Made by a program: the position numbers and the translations under genes
NCBI GenBank assembly: GCA_020055645.1
Contig: CM034547.1
Coordinates: 39,969,909-40,033,908 of the forward strand
Reading direction: 5' to 3'
DNA from: Tomocerus qinae
Taxonomy: Eukaryota; Arthropoda; Collembola; Entomobryomorpha; Tomoceridae
Length of the DNA stretch: 64,000 nt
Shown: in pieces, positions 323-52,468 of the stretch
Layout: each line of letters opens with the position of its first letter
Position numbering within the stretch: the stretch's first letter is position 1
Notes under the pieces: model-generated
What the model was told of the DNA's origin: nothing
The model's database searches: none
What the model saw: the letters and a program-made list of their open reading frames with translations, nothing else

Positions 323-1414
323 TCATGATTCTGGTTTTTCTTCACTTTTTTGTTTAGAATTGGATGAATTTTTATTCCGTTGCCGTTTTCTTTTAGGTCG
401 AATAAGAGGACGGTCGGTTGATGAAGGGAGAGACTGGATGGTAGACGACGATTTTTGTACTTCTGCTCCTCTTTGTTGTAACTTTGCTAAGGTTTCCGAG
501 TATTTAGTTTTTACAGCATCGGGAGAAAAATCCTCTGAATTCGAATTAATCCTTTCTTCAATCTTCTTAGCGTAGAAGTTATAGGCCTCAGTTGGGGGGC
601 TGCTTTTGTCTTTCCTCCATTTTGGTAGAACAGTCTGAATTTTAGTTTTCTTTTTAGACCAATCAAACTGCTTTATGTTGAAGACCGTGAGAAATTCAGT
701 TTTTGCTTTCAGATAATGTATGGAGTATATGTTCCAGAAATAGTTGTGGATATCCGATTTTGATGTTTGTGCGGGAATACTATCCATAATAATTTTAGAA
801 TTTCTGAGTAGGAGAAGTTCTTGCGTAAAGAGTGATCCTAATTGATATTGTTTTTGAATTAGGCTGGCCAATGTTGATTTTAAGTAAGTTACTTCTTCGT
901 GCACTTTTTCTGGAAGATATTGAAAACAAGGGACAGAGAACTGGATTTTTGGGTTCATTAGCATAACATTGTGGTTTTCAGCATCTGTAAGGTTTTTCTT
1001 GAAGTAAATAATCTGAGAAGTCGACATAAAATTCTTTATTATTGATAAAGAAGCTTCCGAGTTGAGTGATACTGGACATGGTATATTGAGAAAGGTATTA
1101 ATGGAATCTTCAGATGGAATTAAAGGAATTATTTTTGTTTCCAGTAGTAGATCAACATATTCTTTAACAAGAAGATCAGTGTAATATTTGTCCAGATACT
1201 CACCAATGCAAAGAGCTTTTTCAGGATCAATTTGAGAAACTTTAGCTAGAATTTCAGCAGTAGATTTATTCTTTTTATTCCCCTCCAGTCTAATTCCTGA
1301 GTCGTTTGGTCTTTTTCTATAATTTGATTTTTTCGGGGATTTCGGTTGAGTTGAAAACAGAATATCAATTTCATCTTCGTTGTCATCGTACATTCGTTGT
1401 GCATTTTCTTCCAT
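323..1414 (-). CDS. hypothetical hydrophilic protein, possibly element-encoded
   Basis: An uninterrupted 363-codon frame. The open frame extends upstream to 1600, but I place the start at the Met at 1414, because the upstream codons run antisense through the Penelope-like coding fragment. I do not recognise the family. The protein opens with an acidic stretch (YDDNEDEIDILF), followed by a basic Lys/Arg-Asn segment that could be a nuclear localisation signal. The middle is alternating helical, and the C-terminal 40 residues are very basic (RPKRKRQRNK). No membrane segment or signal peptide is visible. The start lies only about 15 bases from the first clearly retroelement-derived sequence, in the opposite orientation. 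It may be an inverted piece of the same element, the target-site gene, or a host gene. A single-exon frame this long in an intron-rich genome favours a mobile-element or retrocopy origin; that is inference. Confidence 0.5.
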   Translation of the reverse strand: MEENAQRMYDDNEDEIDILFSTQPKSPKKSNYRKRPNDSGIRLEGNKKNKSTAEILAKVSQIDPEKALCIGEYLDKYYTDLLVKEYVDLLLETKIIPLIPSEDSINTFLNIPCPVSLNSEASLSIIKNFMSTSQIIYFKKNLTDAENHNVMLMNPKIQFSVPCFQYLPEKVHEEVTYLKSTLASLIQKQYQLGSLFTQELLLLRNSKIIMDSIPAQTSKSDIHNYFWNIYSIHYLKAKTEFLTVFNIKQFDWSKKKTKIQTVLPKWRKDKSSPPTEAYNFYAKKIEERINSNSEDFSPDAVKTKYSETLAKLQQRGAEVQKSSSTIQSLPSSTDRPLIRPKRKRQRNKNSSNSKQKSEEKPES

Positions 1415-1429
1415 TATTGAAAAATCGAG

Positions 1430-2165
1430 GACAGGTAAAAGTTTAGCCGAGATTTTTATTATACTAGACACTACCAGTATTATAGATGTAAATTCATGGC
1501 TATCTGAAAAGTTTAAACATAGATTTCTAGAATTTACATATGAGTTCAACGAATCAAAAATATCATTTTTAGATCTTGAAATACACTTGAATGAAAACAA
1601 AGAGATATCTACTAAACTCTACAGAAAGCCGATGTCCAAGAGTCAACCTTTACATTACCATTCAAATCACCGTAAATGTTTAATAAAATCGATACCTTAT
1701 GCTCAGGGTCTTAGAGTAATTAGATCATACAGTGACGTTTCTGAATCTAAAATAGAATTACATAAGCTAATGGATAAATTCATTCAAAGATGTTACCCTA
1801 AAGATGTAATTAATAACACATTATTAAAATTAGAAACTGTAACTAGAGAACAGACTTTAACACCTAAGAAGCCGCTATTAATACGTAATCTAAGCATACA
1901 CAATCCGGAAATATTTTCCAAAATGAATCTAACACTGACGGATTATCCAGCAAAAAACTCTAATCTAGATTCAAATTCTATTTACATAGTAGTACCTTTT
2001 TATAATTCCATAAGCGACTACAGCAAAATTATTTTAGAATCAATAAGGCAAGAAATTGAGAAATGTGATGATTTGATCTATAAAGAAATTGGAAAATGTA
2101 TAAACTTTAAAATTAGCTACAGTAAAATCAATTCTTTAGTTAATTACACTAAGATAAAAGATTAA
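1430..2165 (+). pseudogene. Penelope-like reverse transcriptase, C-terminal fragment
   Basis: Open frame of roughly 245 codons ending at a TAA at 2163-2165. The recognisable part starts around DVNSWLSEKF and covers the RT thumb and a C-terminal tail with VVPFYNSISDY, resembling the VPFHP-type tails of PLE proteins that lack an endonuclease. No YxDD palm motif is upstream, because the element is cut off near 1428. In frame but incomplete, so not expected to be active. Confidence 0.7.
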
Positions 2166-2520
2166 ATTTTAAGCTTGATATGCTTGAGATTTCTTTCTCA
2201 CTTATCCCCATATAAACAACACAAGCCGCCAAATCTACCCGCTTACTTCAACATACATTGTTCTTGTTATAATTGCACCGCTGACTGTCCCACCAGAATG
2301 TAAATAATAATTACTTTCATAGTTTGCAAATTGTAAATTAAATTTAAAAAGCACTTCCAGTTCTTGTAAACTACTACAAAAGGTAATACCTAATGGCATA
2401 TACTATTTTCTCAAATAATTTTTCTCTAAAATTGTTATGATCTGAATAACATTTCACTGTCCACTATAGTCATTACACATTGTTTGTATAAGTTCTTCCA
2501 TTCATGTTTTTGTATTTACA

Positions 2521-2551
2521 GTACCTGATGATGAAACGAAATCGATCGTAC
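2521..2551 (+). ncRNA. candidate minimal hammerhead ribozyme (copy 1)
   Basis: The core bases fall in hammerhead order: GTAC (2521-2524, stem I 5' side), CTGATGA (2525-2531), a 6-base stem-loop II slot, GAA (2538-2540), the self-complementary ATCGAT (2541-2546, stem III with no loop), the cleavage base C (2547), then GTAC (2548-2551, stem I 3' side). The A-T closing pair of stem III and the UH cleavage rule are satisfied. Palindromic loopless stem III and a tiny stem II are known for PLE hammerheads that act as dimers. Stem II is barely pairable, which is the weak point. Confidence 0.5.
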
Positions 2552-2681
2552 AAATAAAATACTATGAACTTGGAAATTGAAGTTGACTAGTTAAAAGTTA
2601 TTGTCGATTTAAGAAGCTTCTGACTCTTCGCATTCATTTTTTTAACTTTATGAGAAGAATCATCCCTAAATATTTTCCAAA

Positions 2682-2924
2682 ATGAATCTAACACTGACGG
2701 ATTATCCAGCAAAAAACTCTAATCTAGATTCAAATTCTATTTACATAGTAGTACCTTTTTATAATTCCATAAGCGACTACAGCAAAATTATTTTAGAATC
2801 AATAAGGCAAGAAATTGAGAAATGTGATGATTTGATCTATAAAGAAATTGGAAAATGTATAAACTTTAAAATTAGCTACAGTAAAATCAATTCTTTAGTT
2901 AATTACACTAAGATAAAAGATTAA
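2682..2924 (+). pseudogene. second copy of the PLE coding tail
   Basis: 80 codons identical to the end of the upstream PLE frame, duplicated by the 759-bp repeat. It is a coding remnant starting at an internal Met and would not be an independent gene. Confidence 0.8.
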
Positions 2925-3279
2925 ATTTTAAGCTTGATATGCTTGAGATTTCTTTCTCACTTATCCCCATATAAACAACACAAGCCGCCAAATCTACCCG
3001 CTTACTTCAACATACATTGTTCTTGTTATAATTGCACCGCTGACTGTCCCACCAGAATGTAAATAATAATTACTTTCATAGTTTGCAAATTGTAAATTAA
3101 ATTTAAAAAGCACTTCCAGTTCTTGTAAACTACTACAAAAGGTAATACCTAATGGCATATACTATTTTCTCAAATAATTTTTCTCTAAAATTGTTATGAT
3201 CTGAATAACATTTCACTGTCCACTATAGTCATTACACATTGTTTGTATAAGTTCTTCCATTCATGTTTTTGTATTTACA

Positions 3280-3310
3280 GTACCTGATGATGAAACGAAA
3301 TCGATCGTAC
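3280..3310 (+). ncRNA. candidate minimal hammerhead ribozyme (copy 2)
   Basis: Same core as the copy 759 bases upstream, in the second tandem unit. Two direct copies would let paired cleavage release a unit-length RNA, as proposed for PLE pseudo-LTRs. Confidence 0.5.
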
Positions 3311-3708
3311 AAATAAAATACTATGAACTTGGAAATTGAAGTTGACTAGTTAAAAGTTATTGTCGATTTAAGAAGCTTCTGACTCTTCGCATTCATTTTT
3401 TTAACTTTATGAGAAGAATCATCCCTAATTACAGCCACTGATTCCCCCGGGGCCTGCACCCAGTTTTCCTATCTAAACTGGCTGCAGAAAAAGAGCAAAA
3501 CATTCTATTATCGTCACCCTATAACGTTCGATGCACACTGGAGTCAATAACAACAGCAACTTGCAGAATCTATCCCCAAATTTTTGTTATTTTGGGTATT
3601 TCATTACTGCATGTGGGGGAGTAGCCATGGGGATCAAACTACTGTACCATAAAAGGATAAAAATAACCATCGTTAACAAAACATTGGGAAGGTGATAGGA
3701 AGTTGGTA

Positions 3709-5431
3709 ATGTCAGTCATGAATAATTACAAAATGAAAAGAATTGAAGTATTTTTGATTTTAACAGTACTAGTAGTTGTTACATTTATCGGTGTCAATAA
3801 TGTATTGTTTTCAAGGATTTCTAAATCTTCACAATATTTGAAGACAAATGGTTCGTCTGTAGTGCCATTTTTGTCATCAGTTTCTCAAGATTTTCAGTTG
3901 ATTGGAAATGGTTCAATAAAATCTTACGGATATTCAGCCTATTTTCATAAACAAGGGTACGGCATGAATTTAAAATGCACATATTATTTTAGACAGGCTA
4001 TACAAATCTCTGGTTCTTTTAATTTTTCAATACAAGGAAAGACTTAATCACATTTCATTGGTTTTTGAACCTCTTTCAGTGTTACCGGACAGGAGGGGAA
4101 ATCTGTAATTGTGGTGTCTGGTTTGTCAAAAAATTCTACCCTTGATTATTTTTGCCAATTATATAACAAGCACCAAGAACTGATCTCGAGCATCAAAGGA
4201 GTGCTGAAACCACTGAAGGTTGATAATACGCAATGGCAAATGCCATACCAGTAAGGATAAAAATAAAAATAATCATCATTAACAATTTTAAACATTAATT
4301 TGATAAACAGGTTAGATTAGATTTTTGTGTGTTTCTTCTTTTCTAGTCCTTACTACATAATCTGTCAATGCAATACTTCTGATGTAATTCCGTCGTTCGT
4401 TTCTGTGGTAGAATCAGAACAAAGTCAAAAAAATACGAAAAATCTGCTAAGAATCGCGTATAACACAGAACAGAAGTACAACTTTTCTATGTGCGTCCAG
4501 CCATTCTACAATTATGAGAAACCTTTTCAGTTTGTCGAGTGGATTGAATACTACATTCTAATGGGCGTTGAGAAATTTACATTTTATAACACGTCAATTG
4601 GGCCAAAAACTTCTTGTTTGATGAAAAGTTACGGAAATGCAGTCGAAATTTTACCCTTTTCATTACCTTACGAATTTCATAAGGAAATATATTTAGGTGG
4701 ACAAAGTATTTCAAATAACGAATGTGTACAGAGGTACAGAGGCCTGTCGAAATATTTAATTATTGCAGACACGGATGAAATGATAATGCCTGCATCCCCG
4801 TCAAAAGGAAACAAATTTAACGAAATGATGGGACATATAAATAACTACATGGCAAAACTAAATAATTATCGTAGCAGTGAAATATCAGTCTATAGATTTC
4901 TCAACAGATTCTTCATGTTGGACTGGATTTTACCTTTAGATGAAAACCTGACGTCGCCTTTGGAAGTTTTGGGGCTTCCAAATTCAGAGAGGGTTCTACA
5001 ACACTTGCTAATGTCAACAAAATTGCTCAAAGAAACTGAACCCGACGATTGGAGGTATTATTAATTTATTAATTATTATATTGAACGATATTGTACTTTT
5101 CATCGAATATTACGATTGACAACGATATTTTAATCTTTCGTTTTATTACAGAACCAAATGCATAGTAAATCCGGATTTAGTCGTAGAAATGGGGGTTCAT
5201 CATGTTCAAGAGTCCATGGGGGGTACCCAAGACGTTCTTGTACCCGAACAGTTGGCATATATCCACCATTACCGGAACTGCACAAATAGCGTGTCGTTTG
5301 TTGTAAATTGTAAAACGAAAGGCAGGGAGATAGACAATAGTGCCCAACGATTTGTAAAAGAAGTTGCCAACAGAGTTAGCCAGAGACTGTTTCAACTAGC
5401 TAAACATTGCAATTTGGATGTTGATTCTTAA
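3709..5431 (+). CDS. GT92 family glycosyltransferase
   Basis: Four exons: 3709-3956, 4080-4250, 4347-5054, 5152-5431; phases join exactly (2, 2, 2) to give 468 codons. The start is the first ATG of the frame that precedes NNYKMKR and a single membrane span (about residues 12-33, IEVFLILTVLVVV), so it should be a type II Golgi protein. GT92 (formerly DUF23) hallmarks: SAYF near residue 78, then VEWIEYYILMGVEKFTFYN, an acidic DTDE metal/nucleotide-sugar site in IIADTDEMIMP, and the late VEMGVHHV and HHYRNC motifs. The family includes galactosyltransferases acting on N-glycan core fucose in nematodes; the substrate here cannot be read from sequence. All hallmark motifs are present and the frame is intact. 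A poly(A) signal follows eight bases after the stop. Confidence 0.87.
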
Positions 5432-8400: not shown

Positions 8401-8611
8401 TCTGTTATGGATTTTGTATCTGAATATTTATTTTTAGTCACAGATATGTATTTACTCGCAAATATTATTATAAATTATTAAAAAATTATTTTCCAATTAT
8501 TCTTTCTTACACGTTTCCCAAAGAACATTTGAAGCCCTAGTTGGAACGATTTCGACTTTCGACCCCATTAAACCGAATTAGACTTTATGTAGTTGGGTTG
8601 GGGGTTGTTTG
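5445..8611. other. gene-free stretch
   Basis: I see no coding exon with flanking splice signals and no family similarity. It holds a purine-rich GA microsatellite tract (about 6335-6367) and a comparatively GC-rich patch at about 8090-8220 that could be a promoter or first non-coding exon of an unseen gene. Short open frames here are not supported by composition. Confidence 0.5.
6335..6367. repeat. GA-rich microsatellite tract
   Basis: A run dominated by GAGA repeats inside a longer purine-rich segment (about 6325-6540). Confidence 0.8.
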
Positions 8612-8740
8612 TCTAAATTGGTCAAAGTTCGTCTAAATTGGTCAAAGTTCGTATAAATTGGTCAAAGTTCGTATAAATTGGTCAAAGTTCGTCTAAATTG
8701 GTCAAAGTTCGTCTAAATTGGTCAAAGTTCGACTAAATTC
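8612..8740. repeat. 20-bp minisatellite, about six copies
   Basis: The 20-bp unit GTCTAAATTGGTCAAAGTTC is repeated head to tail about six times; the third and fourth copies share a C-to-A change (GTATAAATT) and the last begins GACTAAATT. There are no spacers, so it is a minisatellite, not CRISPR. Confidence 0.93.
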
Positions 8741-11700
8741 AAACTCCAAAAATCCTCCAAACGTACTCCTAAATTACAAAATTCCCAAAAACAATTTCCA
8801 ATTCAATTTTACTGAATTTTAGCCGAAAAAGTAAAGATGCAACCGAATTTCTAGTAGTTCTACATTCAGTTATTGTAGTTATCATATTGGCAATAGCCAG
8901 GGTTGAAAAAATAGATAGACGGTATGCAGCTTTTGTATTTAGCTGAGATATTAGTCTGTTCTCCTGGAGCCCCTAGTCCTGGTGTGGAGTGTGGTAGTCC
9001 ATGACATGGAATAATATTCTGCCTAAAATTTATATTCTGCAAAGTATATTCTCAGCTATGATGTTTCTGCAGAAGTGACAGGCGAAAGTTCCAGTGATTT
9101 CCCCCTCCACCTTCACTCTCTCATCTCCAGCTCTTTCTGATCTGCTTTTCTTCTGCAACGCTCGTTGGCTTTGATGAATCTCGTCTACCGATTACATTCT
9201 CTCTCTCCCTTCGTCGATATTTATATATCCCTTCTAGTAGTAGTGCATATATAGTGTATCACGAACTTATCCTTTACCTGGCAGGGATCATGAGAATATT
9301 ATTTCCCTATGTTCAAACAGAATACTGACTGATCTACTAACAAGAGCTGAGTCTATCGTATTTATTCTCTCTTTTCTACCATGTAATCACATAATTAGCT
9401 AAGCACTAACATAGAAGCAAAAGCATGTAAATCCACTACGAGTGAAAGCAGAAGTGCAATGGAAGTTGAAGACTGACGCGATGACTCGGACATGATTTTG
9501 ATTAAAATAAGCAGAGTATAAACTACATATAAAATCTGGAAATAAATCGCATGAAATTTTAAATCTGATTGAAACAACGAATACCGGAAAACAAATGGAC
9601 CAAAAATTTCATAGCCACACCCTTTTCTGACAGAAATCTTGTGAATTTTACATCTAAAACAATGGATTTGGTGAAACTTTATTTCTTAAGGCAGATTCTT
9701 CCTTCCTTAACGAAAGTTCACCAAATATTGGTAAACAATATAAATGTATACAGATATATACCTGTATATATGAATATGGTATTACATTTTATGATTTTAT
9801 TGCTATATATAGAATAGCGTAAAATCCCTTGAGATGTGATTAGATAGAAAATAACAGAATGGTAGGCATAAAAGATTAGTAAGATGTCTACCTGTTTATA
9901 GTTGTGAGCAGGAGTGAGTTGTATGTAGTATTAGGACGGGTGAATGGATTGACTTCGGTCCCGAGTTGTGAAAGCTGAGAGGAGGGAGTTTTGTTGGATG
10001 GTCGTTGAAAAGCAAGTTTGGCTTTGCGAGTGGGGAAGAAAGTGCAATTCAACTTCTGTGAAGATCACTTTGGTTTCTTAAGCAGAGTGTACAAAGGTCT
10101 GCGGGATGAGAGTTTATAAAGTTGGACTGAATGGACATAAGTAAAATGACCAAATGAGACGATGGAGAAAGTCAAGTTTTGGGAAAGTTGGGTGTGTGAG
10201 GAAGAAAGTCTCCTGACTGGCGGAGACAGAAAGTTGAGAATCTATAAGTTAAATTCAGGTTTCTTTAGGTAGATGCATTTGGCATGGAGATGGTCAAGGA
10301 AGTCTGTCTGCCACTCTCCTCCAAGTACGAAGTCGTGTACTCTTCAAGTAGACACTCGAACTATCTGTCTATCACACAACAAGAAAATCGAAATTCTCTG
10401 TTTCGGAAGACTCTATTTATACATTGATTTATACAGTAGCACTGGATACACTGGCACACACACTCGGATTGAATAACGGCTCCTGATTCTTGTAGTTTTT
10501 AGCTCTCTCGACTTAGCAAGTATAATATAATTCAGCAGAAGCCAAGACTTGTGACTCTGACCGACGTTCTGGTGACTCAGAGCCGGTCAATAAGTAAATA
10601 CCAGTAGGCAACTCTGTTATTAAGGTAGGTGGCGGTATTAATAGCATCCTCCAGTCTGTCTGCTTGTCTCTTTTTACACATTCCTGTACAGGATTGATTT
10701 TTTCTCTGGAGATATTTTAATGTTTGCTAGCGTAGAATTATTTTAGTATTTTCTGATTTGTTAGTGGAAGAGAGTGTGTGAGGTATAGATGCAGTGAGTG
10801 ATGAAATGGAACTGAGGTGGTGATGCGTCCAGGTAGACGAGTGAGTGCCGAATCAACTGCCAAATATATTTAAGTGCATACATGGCAGTATATACTTATT
10901 TTTAGTAGAAGAAGGGAAGAGGTCGGAGTGAGGGAGAACGTCTGTAGTATGGAAGAACCAATAAATACATATATAATGCTATATTTAGTCTGTTTTAATA
11001 AACACGGAGAGAATGCCAAAGGACATATAGGTAGATACAGTGGTAGATAGGTAGGCAGGCGTGTGAGTGACTCAGTCACTTTCTATAATGTTATGATGCA
11101 GTTCAAAGAATAAAAGGTGTATTCATATTATACATAGAAAAGAGCCGAGAAAGCAGAACGCTTTCTTTACTTATTCTGCTATTAGTACATATATGTTATT
11201 CTGAACCTACCTACTATCTGTATAATATACTCATGTATGTTAACCCATCTCTACCATACTCTAGATACTCTACTATGATAACTACGCTAACGAACCACGC
11301 ACTAATAATATCCATACCCGTCTAATATTTAGTAGTTATTAGTGAGCATATGGATATATAGTAAATGAGTCAATCAACCAGATGCACGTATCCCACCTTA
11401 AATACCCTACCTCTCTCTCCACTCACTACTACTACTATTACATACGTAGACTCACTCTCCCTTTTCGGTTTCACTCTAGTATTTGCAAATACAGCACTAA
11501 AGGCCCACCCCACCCCCATTCCACTCCACTTCCACTACTCAGCTCTCTTCCTCAACCTTGTTTAGATATACATTCACACAATTACTTCTCTATACTATTA
11601 TATACCATTTAATAACCGTCTAACCCACTACTCATTGCTGAAATGGACAGCATAAAGAATTGTAATTGACTATGACGAGACGAGAGAACATGTTATCAAT

Positions 11701-42609: not shown

Positions 42610-49404
<6,795 letters not shown>

Positions 49405-51509: not shown

Positions 51510-52468
51510 CCGGGTGGCGCAGAATGATGTATACATGAACTTTGACCTTTAATAACTGACGATGGGTTTGGTGTATTTCAATGCTATGCAGACCATGTGA
51601 AAGAGCATGCGTTTTTTAGTGAGATTCTGAATTTGAAGACCCTCCATCACCAGACACCGACGTAATCGCTCCAACACTGACCGACCTGAATTTTTGTAAT
51701 ATTCCTGATTTATTTCCCATTTCCGTAACGATGCATGCGCTTAGTTGCATCAATGTTGTTGACTTTTCGGCATGGGCATTATCCTCAACGATTCCCTAAA
51801 GACTGAAATCACATGGTGTTAAGTCCGGTGATCTTGGTGGCCATGAAACCTATCCTCCCCTACTGATGCATCTGTCATGCAGGGAAGTGGGTATCAAACA
51901 ATTCCCTAATCCTAACATCAAGCCTGAAATGCGCCGGTGCCCAATCTGCCCCATCATCATTCACCCATTAAGTCTTTTTTCTGTCCAATGACTTAATTGG
52001 CCAGCTATTCAAGTAATTCCAAATCACAGTCGTTTAAAATCGTTTAGCAATTAAGCAATTTAGGCTTGATGTTAGGAAATGGTTTGATGCCCACTTCCCT
52101 GAAAGATGGGTCGGTTGGAGAGAATCGGTTTCATGGCCACCGAGATCACCGGACTTAACACCATGTGATTTCAGTCTTTGGGGAATCGTCGAGGATAATG
52201 TCCATGCTGAAAAGTTAACAACATTGATGCAACTACGCGCATGCATCGTTACGGAAATGGGAAATAAATCAGGAATATTACAAAAATTCAGGTCGGTCAG
52301 TGCTGAAGCGATTACGCCGGTGTCTGGTGATGGAGGGTTTTCAAATTCAGAAATCTCACTAAAAAACGCATGCTCTTTCACATGGTGTGCATAACATTGA
52401 AATACATCAAACCGATCGTCAGTTATTAAAGGTCAAAGTTCATGTATACATCATTCTGCGCCACCCTG
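51510..52468. mobile_element. mariner-derived foldback element
   Basis: Terminal CCGGGTGGCGCAGAATGATG and its inverse, flanked by TA on both sides (51508-51509, 52469-52470). The arms (about 51510-51930 and 52062-52468) are inverted copies of the same transposase 3' half. On the plus strand the right arm reads SWPPRSPDLTPCDFSLWG, the last catalytic-Asp region of the Tc1/mariner DDE transposases; the left arm is the same sequence inverted with more damage. The loop is ~130 bases. No catalytic core remains, so it is non-autonomous. Confidence 0.88.

Follow-up and report, generated by a model that had tools for sequence, protein, structure and literature searches.

The window analysed here is the whole 64,000-nt stretch at positions 39,969,909-40,033,908 of the forward strand of contig CM034547.1 of Tomocerus qinae (GCA_020055645.1), designated G000:C2:39969909-40033908 in the assembly that we examined (334 Mb, 115 contigs). 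Its start holds the right-hand part of a retroelement insertion that spans G000:C2:39967599-39973337 and is built of minus-strand and plus-strand copies joined head to head, with element 3' ends at both outer edges, only one arm of the structure lying in the window. The minus copy, mapped by blastn, is nearly full-length (3,759 bp, from C2:39967599 to window position 1449). Its 363-aa ORF1 occupies 323-1414 on the minus strand and is closed by an in-frame TGA (323-325); ORF2, a putative reverse transcriptase (RT) of 708 aa, starts within 1-322 on the same strand and runs on left of the window to G000:C2:39968104 (L016:7605-9731). The two copies have 6 nt in common at the head-to-head junction (1444-1449, or 10853-10858 of the locus, by blastn). 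From there a 5'-truncated plus copy extends over 1444-2669 and corresponds to element positions 2533-3758 of 3759 when aligned by blastn with the minus copy; it contains the end of the RT ORF, the 3' UTR, a hammerhead motif and the tail, and an ORF at 1350-2165 overlaps it. It is followed in partial tandem by a second, shorter and likewise 5'-truncated plus copy (about 2662-3429, element positions about 2992-3759, blastn). The earlier note on this DNA had described a Penelope-like tail at 1909-3426; its plus-side tandem stands, but the minus-strand half and the two-sided structure had been overlooked, as had the target duplications at the sister loci described below.

Host sequence resumes at 3430-3720, upstream of a GT92 glycosyltransferase gene (3667-5431) and without an abutting target duplication. 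A paralog of this gene, 90% identical, lies left of the insertion (L016:2246-3333), and the flanks adjoining the insertion also match one another in inverted orientation (78% over 195 bp). The GT92 repeat was considered as a possible target duplication; it abuts neither element end and was read as a gene paralog.

The stop between ORF1 and ORF2 has the same position in all four copies read (TGA in the window; L012, L013 and L014), and for that reason it looks like part of the element's design, as two ORFs or readthrough, rather than decay. ORF2 has at least 64 matches at E <= 1e-5 (63 of the 604 first candidates were scored), and relatives outside the family are 43-60% identical among the matches listed. 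Open frames of 668-721 aa occur in 45 of these 64 listed matches and none of the 64 exceeds 721 aa, which leaves no extension at the place expected for a C-terminal GIY-YIG. RT motifs recognised by eye (FLDD, GIQMGG) are invariant in three proteins, and ORF2 also bears what we take to be a Penelope-specific RT motif. Pfam recognised neither RT nor endonuclease in ORF2; in two divergent relatives scanned, it gave RVT_1 in one (44% identical; E 0.0011, below the cutoff) and none in the other. No GIY-YIG endonuclease was found by Pfam in ORF1 or ORF2, a silence that weighs little since Pfam missed the RT as well, and a match of ORF1 to nSTAND_NTPase4 fell below the cutoff. AlphaFold gave a mean pLDDT of 32.4 over 237 aa. 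The one PDB match to pieces of the RT (E 0.076) was rejected as unrelated, L001 proved by tblastn to be a chance match and not a relative, and searches of viral_contigs and genome_contigs returned no relatives.

Element anatomy, the hammerhead and known motifs support the assignment to Penelope proposed in the earlier note: a pseudo-LTR, partial tandem and inverted copies and a tail are all present. We regard the element as young, two-ORF and Penelope-like, without a recognised endonuclease. Its coding unit of ~3.8 kb sets it apart from retrozymes, which also have tandem repeats with type I hammerheads but are described as small and non-autonomous, with RNAs of about 170-400 nt (PMC7229834), that is, as short non-coding multimers. 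Endonuclease-deficient Penelope-like elements and the Terminons likewise have two ORFs, with no endonuclease domain (none was recognised here either), and a hammerhead near the 3' end, as reported in PMC6431247; in contrast to Terminons, the element here lies inside long contigs. Two loci with the same element, A and B, are at 8.6 and 28.4 Mb of the 140 Mb of contig C1, and the window locus (C) is at 40.0 Mb of 71.8 Mb, so that a telomeric location does not apply to these three loci. No TTAGGG or TTAGG arrays were found at six ends of four contigs. The element 3' end reads CCCTAA (for example in window 2662-2669), the complement of a TTAGGG repeat.

The tandem on the plus side consists of two 759-bp head-to-tail units (1909-2667 and 2668-3426) without a single difference, as the earlier note had it, and the match extends 2 nt more (AA) at the junction. 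In the genome the unit has at least 12 matches at six places: nine, at A, B and C, cover its full length, and the other three are fragments (217, 65 and 64 bp). A pattern search of the genome for the hammerhead motif, allowing up to 3 mismatches, returned at least 10 sites, nine exact and one with two mismatches; the nine exact sites fall three each at A, B and C. Among these nine, the 759 spacing is found at the window locus only, the other same-strand spacings being 3,521 and 3,797 bp. The 759-nt unit or circle thus finds no support as a feature of the family, and the unit appears to be an isolated case in which a truncated copy formed a partial tandem. Judged from sequence, the window locus is the only one among the loci seen that could yield a 759-nt circle.

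Each unit carries the motif order GTAC-CTGATGA-TGAAAC-GAA-ATCGAT-C-GTAC that had been noticed earlier. In hammerhead 1 (2521-2551, plus strand), stem I is formed by GTAC at 2521-2524 and 2548-2551, CTGATGA (2525-2531) is followed by the six-base linker TGAAAC, GAA and the self-complementary ATCGAT (2541-2546), and the predicted cut falls after C2547; the identical hammerhead 2 (3280-3310, plus strand) has CTGATGA at 3284-3290 and a predicted cut after C3306. The tested features of a type I core (CTGANGA ... GAA, A15.1-U16.1 and H17) are present. A loose minimal hammerhead descriptor finds two places in the 64-kb window, both of them these motifs. Applied to both strands of the window after dinucleotide shuffling, it found 39 places in 300 shuffles, with at least one in 36 of the 300, which corresponds to a chance rate of about 0.13 per window and about 0.0015 per 759 bp. 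The minimum free energy (MFE) fold extends stem I across an internal loop, pairing GTATTT (2512-2517) with AAATAC (2557-2562) within 2512-2562 on the plus strand; 234 of 20,000 random flank pairs did equally well as these six extra pairs. The covariance-model search proposed earlier gave a different answer: Rfam returned no hammerhead at the gathering threshold across the window, and on 1300-3700 at E <= 10 its sole match was an unrelated sRNA. The MFE fold of the monomer is a competing hairpin and no hammerhead (z = -0.94), and in the dimer the hammerhead is less favourable than a competing fold (-9.9 versus -17.8 kcal/mol).

From the 64 listed RT matches we picked 20 loci to spread over identities and read the stretch downstream of ORF2. 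A sense-strand hammerhead was present in 17 of the 20, at position 408-612 of that stretch, against none of 20 on the opposite strand and 28 of 4,000 shuffled stretches. The descriptor found no hammerhead in L062, L065 and L067, L065 having a lone core. Because this search required three or more stem I pairs, the 45/45 pairs that it shows in stem I follow from its design. When sites were picked by core and stem III palindrome with stem I ignored, all 48 stem I pairs at 16 sites were Watson-Crick (L050 and L060, neither of which has a perfect palindrome, do not enter this test). Among the 12 distinct sequences the count is 36/36 with varying pair types, a value that none of 20,000 shuffles (mean 26.0) reached; as in a type I hammerhead, stem I pairing is kept despite sequence change. 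Stem III behaves similarly. In a set of 15 hammerheads (14 from relatives plus the window; the near-identical L057=L054, L058=L051 and L064=L063 were left out), the string from A15.1 to U16.1 takes nine forms and is a perfect palindrome in 13, pairing with itself through G-U pairs in one and with a central C-C mismatch in one. The palindrome was not demanded by the search, although the outer A-T of the string was part of it. L059 and L056, which have a common linker and stem III and differ in the outer stem I pair, are both in the set of 15 and count as one among the 12 distinct sequences.

Stem II is where the earlier description needs amending. One or two pairs had been proposed; TGAAAC is unpaired in the canonical register, and one G-C pair forms only with the first U bulged. 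The same holds across the set, with 0 of 15 pairing at 10.1-11.1 and 15 of 15 having 1-3 pairs (G-U allowed) once the first nucleotide is bulged. After A9 comes U or A and then G in all 15, and the linker ends with C in 14. In these sequences stem II is present but displaced by one extra core base. Some viroid hammerheads carry an extra nucleotide between A9 and stem II. Natural hammerheads have been reported with a stem II of a single pair and with a U-U mismatch at 10.1-11.1 (PMC3088659).

We consider the hammerhead motif real and conserved as a structure, as judged by its restriction to the sense strand, the shuffle control, stem I covariation and a palindrome kept across subfamilies. Stem III is self-complementary without a stable hairpin, as in the dimeric Penelope-like hammerheads, and the earlier prediction of dimer action from this loopless stem is strengthened by the 13 perfect palindromes retained while the sequence changes. 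A self-complementary stem III implies that cleavage should occur chiefly between paired copies, for example within a tandem transcript; for this putative dimer cleavage, covariation supports the structure. Penelope-like hammerheads that cleave as dimers were reportedly described by Lunse, Weinberg and Breaker in 2017 and by Cervera and de la Pena in 2014. The hammerhead here is a further member of this already known type: type I order, very short palindromic stem III, tandem copies and location in the element repeat are shared, and the U or A inserted after A9, before the G of stem II, in 15 of 15 may be a difference. Penelope-like hammerheads have been reported to act as dimers (PMC6466107; PMC7761336), and the present set offers a clean covariation case for selected dimerisation together with an extra core nucleotide.

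The tail runs from the predicted cut to the element 3' end over ~120 nt (2548-2669, plus strand; ..ATCATCCCTAA). Of twelve 3'-end junctions of inserted copies, the internal one at B was set aside, as the element may simply run on there. At all of the 11 clear junctions (11 of 11) the copy ends within element positions 3755-3759, ~120 nt past the predicted cut, and none ends at the cut. It follows that the template RNA was uncut at that hammerhead, and initiation of reverse transcription at the 3' tail site is the reading that these ends suggest. In an anole element, reverse transcription has been reported to begin within the RNA, beyond the hammerhead, and mutating the hammerhead left insertion in vitro unimpaired (PMC11167929); a start past the hammerhead fits the element here. 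The hammerhead may serve to cut tandem transcripts down to units that are then translated or turned over. Two solo tail fragments, each about 65 bp long and lying from about 1499 in L035 and L036, both stop at one element position and continue CGACTT where the element has CGACAA; they possibly belong to another family with a common tail.

The two-sided anatomy is not limited to the window. Loci A, B and C all have the 3' tail at both outer ends and head-to-head joins, and five more minus/plus RT pairs occur among the listed matches. Four of these were opened (h73, h52.46, h36.47 and h39.95), each with the element 3' end on both sides; together with A, B and C they make up the seven loci examined, the pair C4:38548/41077 being left out. 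At locus A, 1291 bp left of the element recur exactly on the right; at B the target duplication is 3063 bp (99.87% identical) and at h73 about 2.94 kb (99.8%), and at all three loci the duplication adjoins the element on either side, give or take a few bases. At h52.46, 1,233 bp at 99.9% touch the left end and lie 1.58 kb off on the right, and at h36.47 the right flank recurs inverted on the left (about 1.5 kb), together with a direct 1,766-bp copy behind a tail fragment. No target duplication was found within 3.9 kb at h39.95, nor an abutting one at the window locus when 37 kb on the left were compared with 60 kb on the right; a search there for a short target duplication gave nothing beyond a 3-nt match. 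The tally over the seven loci is thus a clean kilobase target duplication in 3, another kilobase duplication in 2 and none in 2, the window included. The three clean cases belong to two subfamilies (51% RT identity). As a control, six left flanks were compared with six right flanks across loci (h36.47 not included), and in none of the 30 off-diagonal comparisons did a match reach 500 bp at 98%. Locus A is also surrounded by an older direct duplication, roughly 89% identical, so the region was already repetitive before, but it is the exact copy of 1,291 bp that adjoins the element. The arrangement at h36.47 (L047), inverted and direct copies of one flank around an extra tail fragment, resembles a fold-back fusion.

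A model that we think probably accounts for the whole is two-ended priming at a fixed 3' tail, head-to-head fusion and a hammerhead acting as a dimer. Since both outer ends are 3' tails, two host 3' ends would have been extended, and the order of the ends implies a 3'-overhang geometry, with the duplicated segment enclosed by the two ends. The type I hammerhead of the transcript, its stem III being self-complementary, would cleave mainly as paired copies. Reverse transcription would start ~120 nt downstream of the hammerhead cut, on RNA uncut there, with two separated host 3' ends each presumably being extended from the 3' tail site. Nascent copies would break off or switch template, which would account for partial tandems like the 759-bp unit, and the 5' ends of the copies would be fused head to head, in some cases through microhomology. 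If the host 3' ends lay kilobases apart, for instance on two sister chromatids or at distant nicks, the stretch enclosed by them would be duplicated. This last step is drawn from the kilobase target duplications at the sister loci; the window locus, without one, fits the two-sided scheme without duplication. At 8-10 bp (PMC3846280) such a geometry is an ordinary stagger; duplications of 1-3 kb suggest separated nicks or ends from two sister chromatids, and the inverted copy at h36.47 suits a fusion of sister ends.

These apparently endonuclease-less elements might cap pairs of broken or separated chromosome ends in the fashion of telomerase, priming each 3' end with their fixed 3' tail, fuse head to head and so make germline segmental duplications, a proposal that we put forward tentatively and rate somewhat short of even; sister chromatids broken at different places would then lead to kilobases of host DNA being copied, in direct or inverted orientation. 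Paired opposite-strand nicks 1-3 kb apart, made by an unrecognised endonuclease of the element (e.g. in ORF1), would be an enlarged version of ordinary Penelope target duplications. Their stagger would have the same 3'-overhang geometry as in short duplications, and the anole enzyme is reported to cut and extend both strands (PMC11167929); however, Pfam finds no endonuclease in ORF1 or ORF2, a weak objection given that it also missed the RT, and in Adineta the Penelope duplications reported are 8-10 bp or absent (PMC3846280), and we consider such nicks rather unlikely. We give little credence to the kilobase repeats being artefacts of assembly or of haplotypes. These insertions are long inverted repeats, which are hard to assemble, and the evidence comes from a single assembly, yet the repeats occur at three loci in two subfamilies and reach the element on either side to within a few bases; mis-joined haplotypes of a duplication-free insertion would not, we infer, simply yield a junction of element end and repeat start.

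Two further alternatives concern the window itself. The 759-bp unit could be a plain DNA tandem duplication that followed insertion, not a product of reverse transcription, and the complete identity of the two units and the 2-nt microhomology at their junction would suit such an origin. Its end, however, coincides with the 3' end that the element shows at other loci, where a random breakpoint would fall only by luck, and loci A and B contain other partial tandems ending at this same 3' end; a plain duplication is for these reasons distinctly unlikely. That the hammerhead is a dead relic or a chance match is hardly credible: the missing Rfam match and the competing MFE fold speak for it, but the sense-strand restriction, the shuffle control, the unbiased stem I covariation and the palindrome kept across subfamilies stand against it.

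Several known systems resemble the element in part. PAc, the Poseidon element of Anolis carolinensis, shares an RT start downstream of the hammerhead and a tail at the insertion ends, its hammerhead mutants insert in vitro and both DNA strands are cut and extended; it differs in having a GIY-YIG and a single ORF, against two ORFs here, and the text consulted mentions no kilobase duplications, which are present at the sister loci here (PMC11167929). The Penelope of Adineta vaga is reported to share partial tandems and inverted copies, most often head-to-head, but contains an endonuclease (PMC3846280). L1-mediated duplications in tumours are alike in that a retrotransposon bridges two ends, the segment between is duplicated and sister chromatids are proposed; those cases are described as somatic, single L1 events over megabases (PMC7058536), whereas ours concern kilobases in an assembled genome. 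A literature search of titles and abstract openings found no report of large target duplications of Penelope-like elements. Kilobase duplications with mirror-image joins are unusual and hint at a chromosomal entry route, and the insertion pattern is, within the literature searched, an undescribed variant that makes the locus worth following. The insertion route of Penelope-like elements is described as an open question (PMC11167929), and if our reading is true, two-sided 3' ends with kilobase duplications would show a way in which a retroelement gives rise to inherited segmental duplications, comparable to that of L1 in tumours (PMC7058536).

Elsewhere the window contains a 20-bp tandem array (8607-8739, 6.7 copies, 96% matches) and three arrays built of related 40-bp units, which seem to occur in both orientations (43877-44030, 45129-45274 and 45993-46172). 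An ORF at 52038-52394 is, by eye, presumably a remnant of a mariner transposase.
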